Positions 1 through 5,615 of a stretch of DNA of 5,891 bases are shown in pieces (positions within the stretch are counted from its first letter, which is position 1; the number at the start of each line of letters is the position of its first letter). Location: positions 1-5,891 of the forward strand of contig CAMWIZ010000064.1 of NCBI GenBank assembly GCA_947174455.1, read 5' to 3'. The position numbers were made by a program, and so were the translations under genes. This DNA comes from an uncultured Clostridia bacterium. Lineage in GTDB: Bacteria; Bacillota; Clostridia; Oscillospirales; Acutalibacteraceae. The notes below the pieces were generated by a model, which worked only from the letters and a program-made list of their open reading frames with translations, had not been told where the DNA came from and searched no databases.

Positions 1-200
1 CGGAATCGTAGGTTGCATGGGCGTAATAGTTCAAAGTCATTGTGATATTGGCGTGCCCCATGATATACTGCAATGCCTTGGGATTCATGCCTGCGTTGGC
101 TAACCGAGTGCAGAAGGCGTGTCTGAGGATATGGGGCGTGATGTTCGGAAGCTGCTCTTTACTCTGCTTGTTGTACTTCTTCACACTCCCTTTCAGCATA
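1..200 (-). pseudogene. int: Tyrosine integrase, C-terminal catalytic fragment (Tn916-type)
   Basis: Reading the minus strand from about 200 to 1 gives an uninterrupted frame with the C-terminal signature of a phage-integrase-family tyrosine recombinase of the conjugative-transposon type. The motif TPHILRH carries the catalytic H-x-x-R. GMNPKALQYIMGHAN carries the second box histidine, and LNYYAH carries the tyrosine nucleophile, probably the second Y by alignment with Tn916 Int. The family enzyme excises and integrates mobile elements by strand exchange and is about 400 residues long. Only about 65 residues are visible, because the gene leaves the window at position 1. On its upstream side the homology stops near MLKGSVKKYNK, exactly where a 13-bp inverted repeat begins. 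No DNA-binding domain or first catalytic arginine is found beyond it, so the gene is 5'-truncated here and presumably dead. Its base composition (about 49% G+C over 1-180, hand count) is richer than the genes that follow, which fits a different origin. The family call is firm. The state of the 3' end is unknown. Confidence 0.85.
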
Positions 201-297
201 CTTGCACCCTTGAATTTAATAAAGCAAAGCGTGTTAAACTCTGTTGTAATCAACCTTCCGATATGTTTTATGTAGTATAAAAACTCAAGGGTGCAAG
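201..297. repeat. 97-bp segment with perfect 13-bp terminal inverted repeats (MITE-like or IS relic)
   Basis: CTTGCACCCTTGA at 201-213 is repeated exactly, in inverted orientation, as TCAAGGGTGCAAG at 285-297. The similarity continues inward for several bases (AATTT against AAACT on the same strand). The 71 bases between the arms carry no gene. The frame of the integrase stays open through the segment, but the translated residues do not resemble an integrase. The left arm coincides with the point where integrase homology stops. Such a short element with long matched ends resembles a MITE or an insertion sequence that lost its transposase. I see no convincing target duplication and cannot name the family. 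A stem with a 71-base loop could form but is not a normal terminator. Confidence 0.6.
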
Positions 298-653: not shown

Positions 654-741
654 AATATGCACCTCCGGGAAGGCTGATTAACACAATAAATTTGGTTTAG
701 CATATTTCATCTTTATATATAAATCAGGGTGGCAGGCTTCA

Positions 742-769
742 TTACAAAGTTATGTAATTGTTGTAAAAT
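742..769 (+). promoter_or_regulatory. Putative sigma-A promoter of the recombinase operon
   Basis: TTACAA (742-747) and TAAAAT (764-769) are separated by 16 bases and resemble -35 and -10 boxes; the -10 has one mismatch to TATAAT and the -35 is poor. Transcription would start near 776, leaving a leader of about 24 bases that contains the ribosome site GGAG (786-789), 10 bases before the ATG at 800. An alternative -10 (TATACC, 775-780) has no -35 at a good distance. Confidence 0.4.
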
Positions 770-775
770 AACTTT
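742..775. promoter_or_regulatory. Nested dyads, candidate operator for the divergent regulator
   Basis: Two inverted repeats overlap here. TTACA (742-746) pairs with TGTAA (753-757) around 6 bases. AAAGTTAT (746-753) pairs with ATAACTTT (768-775), perfect over 8 bp, with the two arms centred 22 bases apart, about two helical turns. They overlap the best promoter candidate for the operon starting at 800. They also lie upstream of A+T-rich minus-strand sequence (TATATA and TATAAA, 712-721) that could serve the regulator gene. A repressor bound here could control both directions. The symmetry is seen directly; the binding protein is inferred. Confidence 0.5.
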
Positions 776-799
776 ATACCAATTCGGAGATGTAATGCT

Positions 800-1285
800 A
801 TGGCACTAGATTACGAACTTAAATATTTTAATGATATTGAAAGTAAAGAGATTGGTTGGCTGTGGTGTCCGTATATCCCTTACGGAAAGATTACGATTGT
901 TCAAGGTGATCTCGGCGAGGGAAAGACAACTATGTTGCTTAGTATTATATCTTTGTTATCCAAGGGCGATCCGTTTGCTTTCACAAATAAGAAAATGACG
1001 GCTGTTTCAATTTATCAGAATGCTGAGGACGATGTGGCTTATACCATTAAACCAAAGTTGGAAATACACAAGGCGAACTGCAATAATGTCTGTTATATAG
1101 AAAAGGAAAATGATTTGCTTTTTATGGATTATGACAGCATATTTGACAAGGCACAGAAACAAGGAATAAGTATCAGAACTTTGAAAACGGTTAAATCAAC
1201 TATGCCTGTTCAATCAATAAAGAAAAACGGAATTTGGTATTGGAAAATTAATAGTAAGGTGGTAGGCAGTAATGCAGAGCAGTGA
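800..1285 (+). CDS. RepA-like AAA ATPase with an apparent internal deletion
   Basis: The N-terminal half is that of an AAA_25/RepA-type RecA-fold ATPase of plasmids and conjugative elements. It has the lead-in WLWCPYIPYGKITIVQGD and a Walker A loop GDLGEGKTT (residues 36-44, with Lys42 and Thr43 for the nucleotide phosphates). It also has the following strand with YQNAEDD (72-78), a segment conserved in this family. From about residue 115 the sequence reads AQKQGISIRTLKTVKS and then KKNGIWYWKI (to residue 150), which matches the C-terminal winged-helix tail of the same family. Full-length relatives are around 300 residues or more and carry a Walker B aspartate and further RecA motifs between these parts. 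Here the protein has only 161 residues and those motifs are absent. The join lies near residues 105-113 (about nt 1112-1138) and is in frame. ATP hydrolysis is therefore unlikely, though nucleotide or DNA binding could remain. It is the first gene of the operon and overlaps the recombinase gene by 14 bp. Confidence 0.8.
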   Translation: MALDYELKYFNDIESKEIGWLWCPYIPYGKITIVQGDLGEGKTTMLLSIISLLSKGDPFAFTNKKMTAVSIYQNAEDDVAYTIKPKLEIHKANCNNVCYIEKENDLLFMDYDSIFDKAQKQGISIRTLKTVKSTMPVQSIKKNGIWYWKINSKVVGSNAEQ

Positions 1286-3107
1286 TTTTAACAGTTATAA
1301 TTCAAATATTGAAGTTGTGAAAAATAAGTCAGGAGCGGCGGCGTTTATTCCCGCAAAGGATAAAGCCGATCTGTTTGGCAATAACCATATATTTAAAACC
1401 TGTGCCTATTGCCGTGTTTCTACTGATCATGACGAACAATTATCTTCGTTTGAATTACAGCAGGAGCATTACAAACAGCTTGTAAGCAATCATCCGAACT
1501 GGGATTTGAAACATATATTTGCAGATGAAGGAATATCTGCAACATCATTAAAAAATCGTGATGAATTCAATAATATGATTTCTCGCTGTATGAACGGTGA
1601 GTTTGATTTGATTGTTACCAAGAGCGTATCAAGATTTGCAAGAAACCTTGTTGACTGTGTTTCGCTTGTCAGGAAGTTGAAAGGTTTAAATCATCCGGTA
1701 GGCGTCTTTTTTGAAACAGACAACTTGTTTACGCTTTCTGAAGATTCTGAACTCAAACTTTCAATACTTGCAACATTTGCTCAGGAGGAATCCGTAAAGA
1801 AAAGTGAAAGCATGAATTGGTCGCTGAAAGAGAGATTTAAAAACAAAAAGCTTTTAACGCCTGAATTATTCGGATATCGCAGACCTCGTGATGCAGTCGG
1901 AAACTATATTAAATACGGAAAACTTGAAATTGAAGAATCTGAAGCAGAGATTGTCAGATTTATTTTCAATGCTTTCCTATCAGGATTTTCTGTAGAAAGC
2001 ATCTGCAATATATTAGAAGATATTGGGTGTAAGACTAAGCTTGGCAACACAAAATGGAATGAGGGTTCTGTTTCATATATCCTTAGAAATGAAAGATATT
2101 GCGGAAATGTGCTTACATGGAAACAATTTACGGCGGATATTTTTGAACATAAAAAGAGAAAAAACAGACAGGACAGAGATCAGTATTTATACACCGATGT
2201 GCACGAAGCTATTATATCAGCAGAGCAGTTTGAAGCAGTTCAGGTATTATTTGAAAATAAAAAGTACGGCTATAAAGGCGGTGTTCCGATTATGCAGGTT
2301 GTTGATATGGGGGTGTTTCGAGGGTATATACCGATTAATCATCACTGGATCAGCGAAAATCCTGAAATCTATTATAAGGCATCCAATAGTGTTCCGGTTT
2401 ATAAAAAGAAACAAAACGTTAAGAAAAACTATTTCAGTAGGTTTGATTTATCGGGCTATCAGGTTGTAAGAGGTCAGTTCTTGACAGCTCGCTCCGAACT
2501 TCCCGTAATATCTTTCGGTAAAGATAAAATCACATTCAACTGTACCTGTACAAGAAAATTTGATTTTGCAGATTATGTTCAGCTGCTGCTTCACCCGACA
2601 GAACGAAAAATTGCAATCAGACCGTGTTCAAAAAATGATATGTACAGCATTCCGTGGCACCGAAATGCAGAACAGCCTATGATAGCGAAAACAATTATCT
2701 GCTCACATTTCTGTAATACATTATATCAGATTATGGACTGGTTTCCCGATTATATGTATAAAGTTTTCGGAACTTTAATTGAGAAAGGCAGCGAACAAAT
2801 TGTAATATTCAATTTATCCAGTGCAATGCCGAATATAACCGTAACGGAAGAACTTGAAAGTGCGAATAAAATTGTGCGTAGAAAAGTCGATATCTGTCCT
2901 GAAGAGTGGGGCAATTCCTTCGGTGAAGAATTTTATAATTTTAGCATGAATAATATGCTCTACTACATGCCCAAAGATACAAATTTAAAGGCGAATGAAA
3001 AAAGCCGTCCTGTTGAAGGACAGCTTCCATTTGAAGTTATGGACGGAACTGAAGTATTACAGTTTGCAGAAAATCTAAAGCAGAAGGCAGGTAAAGAAAA
3101 TGAATGA
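1272..3107 (+). CDS. Large serine recombinase with a C-terminal module shared by its neighbours
   Basis: This is a site-specific DNA recombinase that cuts with a serine and rejoins through a rotating tetramer, normally to excise or insert a mobile element. The resolvase domain (about residues 42-190) has AYCRVSTD with the nucleophile Ser50, the motif DEGISAT (85-91), and SVSRFARN with Arg121 and Arg124. The recombinase domain (about 200-300) follows, with YRRPRDAVGNY, EAEIVRFIFNAFLSG and ILRNERYCGNVL. The usual CxxC zinc ribbon and an obvious long coiled coil are missing. Instead, residues from about 390 carry LSGYQVV, HPTERKIAIRPC (441-452), an ICSHFCNTLYQIMDW segment and CPEEWGNSFG (P543 to G550). 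This module recurs in the next three genes. The start is supported by AGGTGG (1257-1262), 9 bases before the ATG. The 611-residue frame is uninterrupted and all catalytic residues I can check are present, so the enzyme may be active. Its attachment sites are not identifiable here. Confidence 0.93.
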   Translation: MQSSDFNSYNSNIEVVKNKSGAAAFIPAKDKADLFGNNHIFKTCAYCRVSTDHDEQLSSFELQQEHYKQLVSNHPNWDLKHIFADEGISATSLKNRDEFNNMISRCMNGEFDLIVTKSVSRFARNLVDCVSLVRKLKGLNHPVGVFFETDNLFTLSEDSELKLSILATFAQEESVKKSESMNWSLKERFKNKKLLTPELFGYRRPRDAVGNYIKYGKLEIEESEAEIVRFIFNAFLSGFSVESICNILEDIGCKTKLGNTKWNEGSVSYILRNERYCGNVLTWKQFTADIFEHKKRKNRQDRDQYLYTDVHEAIISAEQFEAVQVLFENKKYGYKGGVPIMQVVDMGVFRGYIPINHHWISENPEIYYKASNSVPVYKKKQNVKKNYFSRFDLSGYQVVRGQFLTARSELPVISFGKDKITFNCTCTRKFDFADYVQLLLHPTERKIAIRPCSKNDMYSIPWHRNAEQPMIAKTIICSHFCNTLYQIMDWFPDYMYKVFGTLIEKGSEQIVIFNLSSAMPNITVTEELESANKIVRRKVDICPEEWGNSFGEEFYNFSMNNMLYYMPKDTNLKANEKSRPVEGQLPFEVMDGTEVLQFAENLKQKAGKENE

Positions 3108-3711
3108 TGAAAACAAACAATCTTTTCAGAATATACGGGAGCAAATATCTGAATCGGAGGAAAAGGAAATTGTAAATTTGGCAGGATTTCAGGTAACGAA
3201 AGCTGAATTGTTTGCACACACAAGAGAACCTGCGGTTACCGTATGGGAGAATCGAATTAAGTTTAATATGGCTTGCCTCAGAAGATTTCCCGGCGTTACG
3301 CATATTCAGTTATTGATACATCCTGAACAGCAGAGATTAATAATCCGTCCCTGTGAAGCGGATGCTCCTGACTCTTTAAGATGGGCTACGGGCGGCGGAG
3401 AAAAAGAAATCCGCAATCGAGATATGATTTGTCAGATATTTGCTGCAAAGCTTTTCGAGCTTATGAACTGGGATAAACAGTACCGTTATAAGATGCTAGG
3501 CAAGCCTGCCATATCGGATAATGAAGCGTTATATCTGTTCAAACTCAATGATTTTGAGCTATTTGTAAATACAGGCAAAAAAAAGAGCCGTGCATATCTT
3601 CCCGAGGACTGGCGAGAATGCTTTGGTGTTCCTGTTGAAAAGCATGAAGAAGCATATAAAATAGATTTGGCAGAGGGCTATATTTCCACAGGAAAGGCAG
3701 GTGAAATGTAA
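3100..3711 (+). CDS. Stand-alone homologue of the recombinase C-terminal module (paralogue 1)
   Basis: The function is unknown, but homology to the recombinase tail is clear by eye. GFQVTKAELF (29-38) matches GYQVVRGQFL. The stretch KFNMACLRRF (54-63) matches TFNCTCTRKF. HPEQQRLIIRPC (74-85) matches HPTERKIAIRPC. ICQIFAAKLFELMNW (110-124) matches ICSHFCNTLYQIMDW, and YLPEDWRECFG (167-177 region) matches ICPEEWGNSFG. It thus covers the whole module, including its last part. No catalytic recombinase residues, signal peptide, membrane segment or zinc motif is visible, so the protein is presumably cytoplasmic. The ATG overlaps the recombinase stop by 8 bp, with a weak AGGT 7 bases upstream, which suggests translational coupling and fixed stoichiometry. 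I infer an accessory DNA-binding or recombinase-partner role, such as a directionality factor or a dimerisation subunit; nothing in the sequence proves it. Databases may label such proteins 'integrase' by neighbourhood alone. Confidence 0.82.
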   Translation: MNDENKQSFQNIREQISESEEKEIVNLAGFQVTKAELFAHTREPAVTVWENRIKFNMACLRRFPGVTHIQLLIHPEQQRLIIRPCEADAPDSLRWATGGGEKEIRNRDMICQIFAAKLFELMNWDKQYRYKMLGKPAISDNEALYLFKLNDFELFVNTGKKKSRAYLPEDWRECFGVPVEKHEEAYKIDLAEGYISTGKAGEM

Positions 3712-4157
3712 TGGCATTTGATATTGGTATTAAAACAGTTTCGTTAGATGGGTTTCAAGTCGTACAAAGAAAATACTTCAGTCGTCTGACGGAACCTGTG
3801 ATGACAATATGGGAATCAGCGGTTGCATTTAACACTGCTTCACACGATGCACTGAATAACTGCGAATGCATAGAGATTTATGTAAATGAAAAAGCAAAAA
3901 GTATAGCTATTATGCCTGTTCCGTCAAAGGATAAGGAAGCTGTGCAGTGGATCAGAGGCAGTAAAAAGTATAAATATAACAGGATTGAATGTACTATGTT
4001 TGCAAGACAGATATTTAAATCATGGGGACTTGATCCGCAGTATCATTACCGTACACCCGGTAAACTTGTACAGTGTGATAAGAAGTTAATGATACTTTTC
4101 GATTTTTCGCATTATGAAGTCTGGAGCGGAAGCAAGCTGGTGAAAGAAAATGGATAA
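3711..4157 (+). CDS. Stand-alone homologue of the recombinase C-terminal module (paralogue 2)
   Basis: This 148-residue protein of unknown function is the second free copy of the module. GFQVVQRKYFSRLTEPVMT (14-32) is close to the matching segments of both paralogue 1 (EPAVTVWE) and the recombinase (GYQVVRGQF). VNEKAKSIAIMPV (58-70) corresponds to the HP-x-x-x-R-x-IAIRPC segment but has lost the His-Pro, the Arg and the Cys. FARQIFKSWGLDPQYHYRTPGK (in 97-117) corresponds to the LYQIMDW / LFELMNW helix and the Y-x-Y-x-x-x-G turn that follows. The final PEEW..SFG part found in the recombinase and paralogue 1 is missing, so this copy is shorter at its C-terminus. The start codon overlaps the previous stop as TAATG, with AGGTG 7 bases upstream. 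The loss of the most conserved core residues suggests a specialised partner rather than a redundant duplicate; this is inference. Confidence 0.8.
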   Translation: MAFDIGIKTVSLDGFQVVQRKYFSRLTEPVMTIWESAVAFNTASHDALNNCECIEIYVNEKAKSIAIMPVPSKDKEAVQWIRGSKKYKYNRIECTMFARQIFKSWGLDPQYHYRTPGKLVQCDKKLMILFDFSHYEVWSGSKLVKENG

Positions 4158-4539
4158 AAATACTTTTATATCAGTTCGCCTTACAAGCGGAAGTATCAGA
4201 ATCTTTAAGGATGCTATAAGGCTGATGGATAATCCTAGATTTATAAGGTTTTCTGTTAATGAAGAAGGTACTTTGCTGGCGGTCGAACCTTATCACAGAA
4301 AAACTTTTACTTCTTTTGCCATTCCACGAAATCTATATTCGTATAGTAGCGCAATGGTAGTTTACAGCAAGTCTTTATGTGCTTTACTATACAATAGACT
4401 AAATTGGAACGAAGATAAATTATATCGCATACCGGGGATAATATTAAAAGAGCAGAAGGCTGCGGTTTTTGATTTGACGAATGCGGTTTGTTATGATGGT
4501 AATTCATCTAACAAAGAGCTTCAAGGAGAAACATTATGA
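4150..4539 (+). CDS. Most divergent stand-alone homologue of the recombinase C-terminal module (paralogue 3)
   Basis: This 129-residue protein is of unknown function. It lacks the GFQVV opening, but the rest follows the plan of its two upstream neighbours. FIRFSVNEEGTLLAVEPYH (31-49) occupies the place of the VQLLLHPTERKIAIRPC strand pair. After a short FAIPRN link, SKSLCALLYNRLNW (73-86) matches the LYQIMDW helix. YRIPG (92-96) matches the Y-x-x-x-G turn, and AAVFDLTNA (104-112) matches VIFNLSSA of the recombinase. Homology is therefore likely but weaker than for the other two, and I rate it on pattern order rather than identity. The gene overlaps its upstream neighbour by 8 bp and the next gene by 4 bp, with only a weak GGTG ahead of its ATG, so it probably depends on coupling. 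No membrane, export or enzymatic motif is visible. Confidence 0.75.
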   Translation: MDKNTFISVRLTSGSIRIFKDAIRLMDNPRFIRFSVNEEGTLLAVEPYHRKTFTSFAIPRNLYSYSSAMVVYSKSLCALLYNRLNWNEDKLYRIPGIILKEQKAAVFDLTNAVCYDGNSSNKELQGETL

Positions 4540-4736
4540 CATTTGCAGAGCAGGTTTTATTCGTTCGGAAGAAGCTGTACCTTTCACGTTCTGATATGGC
4601 AAAAGAAATTGGCGTAACCGAACAAACAATTTACAGATGGGAGCAAGGATTATCCAAACCGCATATTTCATCAAAAGGCAAGCTTATGTCATTATGCAAA
4701 AAACAAAAGATCAGGTTTGAAGATATAGATGCATAA
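4536..4736 (+). CDS. Small XRE/Cro-type helix-turn-helix protein
   Basis: The 66 residues are almost entirely one Cro/CI-like DNA-binding domain. AEQVLFVRKKLYLSRSD leads into MAKEIGVTEQTIYRWEQG, whose recognition helix includes TEQTIYRWE, and then a closing helix KGKLMSLCKKQ. There is no room for an effector domain, so it probably acts as a dimeric Cro-like regulator or an excisionase-like architectural factor. It is the last gene of the operon. The start overlaps the previous stop as ATGA and has the strongest ribosome site of the run, AAGGAG (4523-4528), 7 bases upstream, so it may be made in larger amounts than the genes before it. A plausible job is feedback on the operon promoter opposite the divergent repressor, or assisting the recombinase. 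Both are inferred from position and fold only. Confidence 0.85.
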   Translation: MTFAEQVLFVRKKLYLSRSDMAKEIGVTEQTIYRWEQGLSKPHISSKGKLMSLCKKQKIRFEDIDA

Positions 4737-4814: not shown

Positions 4815-4861
4815 AAAAACCGCATGAATACTGGATTTGTTCAGTGTTCATGCGGTTTTTC
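4815..4861 (+). terminator. Strong intrinsic terminator of the recombinase operon
   Basis: AAAAACCGCATGAA (4815-4828) pairs perfectly with TTCATGCGGTTTTT (4847-4860). The stem continues through a T-G wobble and four more pairs (ACTG with CAGT) to an 8-base loop at 4834-4841, giving about 19 pairs. Runs of A before the stem and T after it let it work on both strands. It lies 78 bases after the last operon gene. Confidence 0.9.
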
Positions 4862-4984
4862 TTTGGTTTGCAGTCATTTTTAGAACGGAGTTTGTCGAGT
4901 TATATTTAGTTACATCTAATTGCAGTTACTACAGATTATGCTTTAAAAAACACCTCGAAATATTGCGACCTTCTCACGTATTCT
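4862..4984. other. Sequence between two terminators, no gene supported
   Basis: This A+T-rich 123-base stretch lies between two hairpin terminators. A 63-codon plus-strand frame (4837-5028) crosses it, but that frame begins in the loop of the first terminator and ends in the second, and it has no ribosome site. I see no RNA gene or repeat. It could be a leftover end of an older gene or element. Confidence 0.5.
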
Positions 4985-5022
4985 CATACAACCGTCCTGT
5001 TTGGGCGGTTGTGTGTTATTTT
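4985..5022 (+). terminator. Second intrinsic terminator
   Basis: CATACAACCGTCC (4985-4997) pairs with GGGCGGTTGTGTG (5003-5015) over 13 positions, two of them T-G wobbles, around the 5-base loop TGTTT. TTATTTT (5016-5022) follows. It would stop any read-through from the operon before the secreted-protein gene, or end a transcript whose gene is now gone. Confidence 0.75.
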
Positions 5023-5147: not shown

Positions 5148-5615
5148 ATGAAAAAGACGACAAAAATTTTATTCTCTGTTCTACTGTGTGCCGTGATGCT
5201 TGTTATGTCTGTTCTTCCTGCATTTGCAGATACTGTACTAATAGAGGATCACTCTGTTGTTGATTGTACACATTACTATAAAGAGAACGGTAATTATTAT
5301 TTCCAAATAAAATGTCCTGAGGGTCAGTTGGATAAGGTAACTGTAGGACTTTCTGGCCCAAGAGGAGGGGCAGCTACTGTATCATTTAAGTATACGTCTT
5401 TTACAGGGATTTTTGGTAAGGAATACGCTTATTCCCATGACGGATATGAATATACATGGCTTATCGTAAAGTGTAGTGAATGGCCTGACGCTTATGAATC
5501 AAGATGGGGTGGTATGATTGCAAAAGTGTATTATTTTGATGGTGAAAATAGTAAAATGGCAACAAATACGTCTAACGGTTCTACTGTTGCAGGTCCTGGT
5601 TATAAGCTTAGTTAA
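5148..5615 (+). CDS. Secreted orphan protein with signal peptide
   Basis: The 155-residue product starts with a textbook Sec signal peptide: charged MKKTTK, a hydrophobic core (residues 7-22), and VLPAFA with a likely signal-peptidase I cut after Ala27. The mature chain has about 128 residues and no lipobox, LPXTG, SH3 or other anchor, so it should be released outside the cell or held by an unrecognised contact. It is rich in Tyr, Gly and Ser, with cysteines at 40, 56 and 109; the odd number allows one disulfide plus one free thiol. Alternating polar and aromatic stretches (YYFQIKC, ATVSFKYTSF, YTWLIVKC, IAKVYYFDG) suggest a small beta-sandwich or barrel. I do not recognise the family. The start is secure: AGGTGG (5135-5140) lies 7 bases before the ATG. 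It has its own promoter and terminator and no visible immunity, export or processing partner, so a toxin or bacteriocin role is only one guess among several. Confidence 0.85.
   Translation: MKKTTKILFSVLLCAVMLVMSVLPAFADTVLIEDHSVVDCTHYYKENGNYYFQIKCPEGQLDKVTVGLSGPRGGAATVSFKYTSFTGIFGKEYAYSHDGYEYTWLIVKCSEWPDAYESRWGGMIAKVYYFDGENSKMATNTSNGSTVAGPGYKLS

Follow-up and report, generated by a model that had tools for sequence, protein, structure and literature searches.

The large serine recombinase encoded on contig CAMWIZ010000064.1 of an uncultured Clostridia bacterium (Acutalibacteraceae, assembly GCA_947174455.1) carries an unusual C-terminal tail in place of the zinc ribbon, and the three genes directly following it encode small proteins, here called P2, P3 and P4. 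The tail, P2, P3 and P4 are one homologous domain, present in four consecutive copies. Based on the sequences, the tailed recombinase and its three free paralogues may well assemble on DNA as a multi-subunit large serine recombinase, a reading to which we give about an even chance.

The window, i.e., the whole stretch of DNA analysed, is the entire contig of 5891 bases and belongs to an incomplete genome of 1.38 Mb. Within this window the module is arranged as follows:

1272..3107, plus strand: tailed large serine recombinase, 611 residues (Pfam Resolvase and Recombinase above cut-off; catalytic residues; model)
1404..1847, plus strand: catalytic (Resolvase) domain, residues 45-192 of the recombinase (Pfam)
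1938..2255, plus strand: Recombinase domain, residues 223-328 (Pfam)
2439..3104, plus strand: tail (residues 390-611), the first copy of the domain, located where ordinary relatives have the zinc ribbon (homology searches, profile comparison, CxxC count)
3100..3711, plus strand: P2, 203 residues, free copy 2 (open reading frame, homology, profile comparison, model)
3711..4157, plus strand: P3, 148 residues, free copy 3, present in window-type modules only (open reading frame, homology, profile comparison)
4150..4539, plus strand: P4, 129 residues, free copy 4 and the most divergent one (open reading frame, phmmer, profile comparison)

One domain in four copies

A domain shared by the recombinase tail and the three small proteins had been proposed in an original prediction on this DNA, and this has been confirmed by profile-profile comparison. 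Here, profiles were made from the loci together with database hits, and all six pairs reached probabilities of 97.9-100% (tail-P2 100%, P2-P3 99.9%, tail-P3 99.8%, tail-P4 99.3%, P2-P4 98.4% and P3-P4 97.9%), in comparison to at most 0.5% for 30 control pairs among nine profiles. By single sequence, a search of the own genome with P2 gave the tail with an E-value of 2e-20 and 30% identity, and it gave P3 with an E-value of 1e-16 and 26% identity. The match of P4 to the tail is weak at this level (phmmer, E of about 1e-4), and BLASTP revealed no match between P3 and P4 and only a spurious match of 16 residues between P2 and P4.

The ordered set of motifs described for the domain keeps its order in all copies, but the motifs themselves fade: P3 displays NEKAKSIAIMPV as well as FDF, and P4 displays NEEGTLLAVEPY and lacks the GYQVV strand. 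A second block, PExWxxxFG, is common to P2 and the tail and missing from P3 and P4. The genes overlap by 8 bp (recombinase/P2), 1 bp (P2/P3) and 8 bp (P3/P4), in agreement with the 1-8 bp stated previously.

None of the tail, P2, P3 and P4 matched a Pfam, NCBIfam or PHROGs family above cut-off, and no internal repeat was detected within the domain. Searching the PDB by sequence returned only ribosomal L38, at an E-value of 0.017 and worse. DUF6128 was considered as a family and rejected, since its best E-value of 0.0015, with 2 of 26 members matching, lies below the cut-off. The PADLOC models gave no match at E <= 0.01 to the recombinase, P2, P3, P4 and five phage-type partners; a tenth protein searched, the AAA ATPase of locus L004, gave a match of 30 residues. 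On one metagenome contig, the tail and P2 are found in one frame as a protein of 410 residues (P0245), which represents either a natural fusion or a sequence error.

A large serine recombinase without zinc ribbon

By its catalytic and Recombinase domains, the enzyme of the module remains a large serine recombinase. The window protein scores 82.9 bits for Resolvase and 85.3 bits for Recombinase in Pfam, both above cut-off, and it shares with its relatives Ser50, Arg48, Arg121 and Arg124, which we take to be the equivalents of the gamma-delta catalytic positions. Of 30 tailed recombinases examined from other loci, three have gaps at the catalytic serine and the remaining 27 all possess it. It is likewise present in all 111 database relatives covering this residue (112 examined, one gap).

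A zinc ribbon after the Recombinase domain is usual, although not universal, in large serine recombinases. Here, CxxC after residue 330 is absent in 142 of 143 tailed recombinases, and at least one CxxC, counted after residue 230, is found in 27 of the 28 ordinary recombinases of the same loci; the sole ordinary recombinase lacking it is the L097 protein.

The tailed enzyme resembles the serine integrases of the A118, phiC31, Bxb1 and TnpX types in its Resolvase and Recombinase domains and its catalytic residues, and residues of about 39-333 match the structure of the solved serine integrases. In contrast to these, it lacks the zinc-ribbon cysteines, ends in a different tail and has free paralogues of this tail encoded next door. 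A second likeness is found to CcrA, CcrB and CcrC of the staphylococcal cassette chromosome (SCC), since the N-terminal 280-290 residues of the tailed recombinase align with the Ccr models. SCC cassette recombinases have neighbouring helicase genes, and an ATPase gene lies directly before the tailed recombinase in some loci. However, the alignment with CcrB stops at about residue 315-325, whereas the ordinary recombinases of the same loci align over most of CcrB, and the tailed recombinase stays far below the curated cut-offs (84 bits versus 900 for CcrB). Furthermore, we know of no free tail paralogues in the SCC Ccr systems.

In locus L097, recombinase and domain are encoded separately: a recombinase of 400 residues, without zinc ribbon and without tail, is followed 6 bp on by a free copy of the domain of 158 residues. 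Pairs of this type also occur in L150 and L151, the latter having a broken recombinase frame. From this gene arrangement, the split form is read as the domain presumably working in trans. Additionally, eight loci encode a small protein with a resolvase domain that lacks the catalytic serine (0 of 8 have it), in seven of them directly upstream. The loci in which it lies beside a tailed recombinase are L017, L048-L052, L093 and L096. A dead catalytic domain next to a live one may be taken as a further hint of a heteromer.

In single-protein integrases, the zinc ribbon and the coiled coil hold the DNA outside the Recombinase domain. For the module, the tail and the free subunits most likely form a hetero-oligomer through their shared domain, which would hold the DNA in this outer region and contribute to contact with the outer half-sites, synapsis and direction. 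Unequal subunits would then let the complex distinguish its sites and set the direction or the place of action of the catalytic subunit. The multi-component serine recombinase suggested in the original prediction remains plausible, given the intact catalytic residues, the absence of the zinc-ribbon cysteines, the split form and the serine-less resolvase-domain protein.

Predicted fold of the domain

The AlphaFold models of the tail (residues 412-528) and of P2 (residues 45-156) display the same order of elements, namely two strands, a helix, two strands, a strand, a helix and three strands. The two models were compared by element order only; they are not fully independent, since the alignment behind the P2 model also includes pieces of the tail (four) and sequences of P3 (seven). 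The predicted local distance difference test score (pLDDT) of ten-residue core blocks is 76-93 for the tail (411-520) and 68-91 for P2 (41-150), with only 68.7 for the P2 model overall.

Among the fold families compared, the best structural match of P2 is MraZ, a transcription regulator; Foldseek alone gave no PDB match at E <= 0.001. By sequence, the comparison with MraZ (Pfam PF02381) was negative: the profile similarity is at most 1.1% for the tail, P2, P3, P4 or all of them combined, measured against a profile made from 10 of 25 MraZ loci, those with a D.K.R motif in the reading frame. An MraZ-like fold, i.e., a tandem of swapped hairpins, is a weak lead suggested by the models. Phage proteins of about the size of the solitary domain copies described below share the predicted fold.

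A more detailed form of the multi-subunit assembly can be envisaged, which we regard as tentative and on balance doubtful. Here, MraZ-like, ring-forming subunits would replace the zinc ribbon, the tail would be one of these subunits, and P2-P4, together with the dead resolvase domain in some phages, would dock onto it and supply site choice and direction separably.

Distribution and history of the module

That the recombinase and its free partners have a single module in common, as originally predicted, is supported, and the linkage is tight and old. The module is widespread and is encountered in numerous phages and mobile elements. The scan covered 40 stretches, including the window, and revealed 31 tailed recombinases. 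In 29 cases P2 follows immediately, and in the other two it is separated by one unrelated gene. P4 follows in 26 of the 28 modules where the contig continues, being absent from L001 and L002, while three contigs end earlier; P3 is confined to window-type modules. On viral contigs, the counts refer to the best 80 of 133 loci found by the P2 profile, near-copies included. The tailed recombinase or its cut end precedes P2 in all 78 loci with readable upstream DNA, with one gene in between in eight loci, and P4 lies downstream in 76 of 80, the other four reaching contig ends.

A conserved gene for about 224-260 residues is located between the recombinase and P2 in L053, L095, L188, L193, L194, L208 and L222, a lineage with recombinases of 720-750 residues. 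As a further copy of the domain this gene was rejected (profile probability of at most 0.4%, unrelated), and the one member scanned had no NCBIfam match. Solitary copies of the domain, with 124-130 residues, are present in L085, L086 and L087, where no tailed recombinase is found within 5-9 kb on either side; L089 is a broken solitary copy.

Of 295 genomes searched from the order, 18 have a match to P2 (E <= 1e-6), and of 391 genomes from the class, 10 match a profile built from all copies (E <= 1e-4); the own genome is included in both numbers. One module locus, L007, comes from a Spirochaetales genome. A match was obtained for 19 phage records, 16 of them named gut phages, and the four records opened are Candidatus (Ca.) Heliusvirales. 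These four contain the tailed recombinase, P2 and P4, annotated as hypothetical proteins only. They differ from the window by the lack of P3, by two ParB-like genes that follow and, in three of the four records, by ordinary recombinase pairs on the other strand. Altogether, the unnamed proteins of the domain comprise 2742 sequence clusters at E <= 0.001 among 5564 candidates. No account of the module was found in the literature searched (open-licence PMC papers), and the words recombinase, integrase, serine and ParB are absent from the main text of PMC9226167.

The tree used to follow the history of the domain comprises 95 of the 109 copies; the other 14 were dropped as near-copies, cut by contig ends or broken. 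Its midpoint root serves the drawing only and gives no direction. The copies cluster mostly by class, not by locus: the five class labels need 5 changes on the tree, with a minimum of 4 and a mean of 53 after shuffling. P3 forms one well-supported group and P2 has the shortest branches. Against a clean class picture, P2 as one group is weakly supported (48/0), the tail needs two changes and P4 also needs two, partly due to a probable mislabel of L088. The latter, labelled solitary, groups with a module P4 and is separated by 82 bp from the contig end on the side expected for its recombinase; it probably belongs to a module, and the wrong label raises the number of changes for both P4 and the solitary copies.

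A supported branch (99/95) places P4 and the solitary copies on one side and the tail, P2 and P3 on the other. The free copies had been proposed to be duplicates of the recombinase module, for which the tree gives no support: because P4 falls with the solitary copies, neither outward duplication from the recombinase nor shedding of its tail is supported, the root being arbitrary, and the capture of a free protein by the recombinase would fit as well. The observation that the copies become shorter and more divergent with distance from the recombinase holds as a trend along the gene order, but the 95 copies look like distinct old classes and not like stages of decay.

Sub-groups are repeated across the classes, for example window, L001 and L002 (in tail, P2 and P3), L004 and L006, L017 and L090, as well as L053 and L095. 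For recombinase, tail, P2 and P4, the distance matrices across the 24 loci containing all parts are correlated (r of 0.64-0.80), a level reached by 0 of 2000 permutations. The comparison of the window with L001 gave a ratio of nonsynonymous to synonymous substitution rates (dN/dS) of 0.095 (recombinase) and 0.14 (P3), and both are under purifying selection. Saturation of dS was observed for P2 and for most of the other pairs; dN of P2 in the comparison of window and L001 is 0.083.

Surroundings of the module in the window

The remaining features of the window are:

2-253, minus strand: end of a tyrosine integrase gene (Phage_integrase, Pfam), cut by the contig end
315..662, minus strand: helix-turn-helix (HTH) regulator, similar to CI in its domain and divergently oriented to the module (Pfam HTH_26 / HTH_3)
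663..799, no strand: intergenic stretch between regulator and module, a likely promoter/operator, part-conserved in L001 and L008
800..1285, plus strand: AAA_25-type ATPase gene with an in-frame internal deletion, probably a remnant (alignment with six relatives; Pfam)
4536..4736, plus strand: HTH protein of 66 residues (Pfam HTH_3), overlapping P4 by 4 bp
5148-5615, no strand given: protein of 155 residues with a signal-peptide-like start by eye

Relatives of the divergent HTH regulator are located directly before the module in L001, L003, L006, L008 and others. In comparison to six relatives, about 170 residues are deleted in-frame inside the AAA_25-type gene, which scores 26.0 bits for Pfam AAA_25, just below the cut-off of 27. 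The 66-residue HTH protein has no relative beside other modules among the loci searched, and the 155-residue protein has no Pfam match. Two inverted repeats with T runs, at about 4817-4865 and 4990-5015, lie 3' of the module and appear terminator-like by eye.

Alternative explanations and location of the module in its elements

Besides the multi-subunit recombinase, a role in maintenance has to be considered, in which the module would resolve multimers or help replication of a circular form together with ATPase or ParB-like partners. This is a minority view for us, but one to be taken seriously, and it is compatible with a multi-subunit build. It is in line with the two ParB-like genes (PHROGs matches) that follow in 47 of 80 viral-contig loci, the AAA_25-type gene upstream of the recombinase in eight loci scanned, and the presence of an ordinary recombinase at a distance of at most 6 kb, in the stretch fetched, for 57 of these 80 loci. 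However, window-type modules are without ParB-like genes. The AAA gene is dispensable for the selected core: it has been shortened in the window, and inspection by eye shows a mere relic of it in L008 and L001, with the recombinase still under selection.

P2-P4 might instead be transcription regulators of the phage or element, the recombinase merely sharing their DNA-binding domain and P2-P4 having no role in recombination. The similarity of P2 to MraZ, the solitary copies without such a recombinase and the HTH regulator gene adjoining the module would fit to this. Nevertheless, P2 is found beside the tailed recombinase, within one gene, in 31 of 31 loci, a bare recombinase is paired with the free domain in the split form, and recombinase, tail, P2 and P4 have parallel histories. 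We regard a purely regulatory function as unlikely.

That the module is the integrase of the element itself, or acts with an ordinary recombinase on the same site, appears rather improbable. In G189, an element of 9.0 kb containing the module (L046, about 6575-15600) is inserted in spoIIID, which is intact in G677 (L144:106-360) and represents the empty site; the SpoIIID model gave an E-value of 4e-31 and 107.3 bits (cut-off, 111.5). Within this element, the module is on the left side, and the right junction coincides with the end of an ordinary, CxxC-containing recombinase, so that in the circular form both would flank the same joint, which speaks for this alternative, as does the lack of an ordinary recombinase within the stretch in 23 of 80 viral-contig loci. 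In G029, the module is located after a phage endolysin gene, and homology to the relative G048 starts next to tRNA-Leu, with the stop codon of an ordinary recombinase. The junctions of G189 and G029 end with an ordinary recombinase of zinc-ribbon type, with the module further in, which makes the module less likely as an integrase. In the intergenic DNA, which was inspected by eye only, no att site of the module was identified.

Given the ordinary recombinases at these junctions and in the viral-contig loci, as well as the tyrosine integrase fragment neighbouring the module in the window, the module is probably a second recombination system of the element, located beside the HTH regulator, and integration would be carried out by another recombinase. 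A copy of the G189 element with 96% identity is present in G687. The G189 element, which interrupts a sporulation regulator gene and has an ordinary serine recombinase at its right end, resembles skin-type sporulation elements.

To our knowledge, no directionality factor is a paralogue of the terminal part of its integrase, which counts against P2-P4 being directionality or accessory factors that switch a recombinase active alone, with the tail as docking domain. According to the title of a reference cited in PMC10083194, phiC31 directionality factors bind the integrase near the zinc domain, where the tail sits here, but P2 was present with the recombinase wherever this was examined, which is more reminiscent of an obligate component, and we consider this explanation very improbable.

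Conclusion

The split form of the proposed multi-subunit recombinase is a two-protein system open to direct test. The current picture of serine integrases, and their use as genome tools, is that of single proteins assisted by no more than a small directionality factor. If the tailed recombinase and its free paralogues do assemble into one enzyme, site recognition and direction could reside in separate parts, and the proteins of thousands of sequence clusters that have had no name so far would receive one, including those of the Ca. Heliusvirales gut phages.

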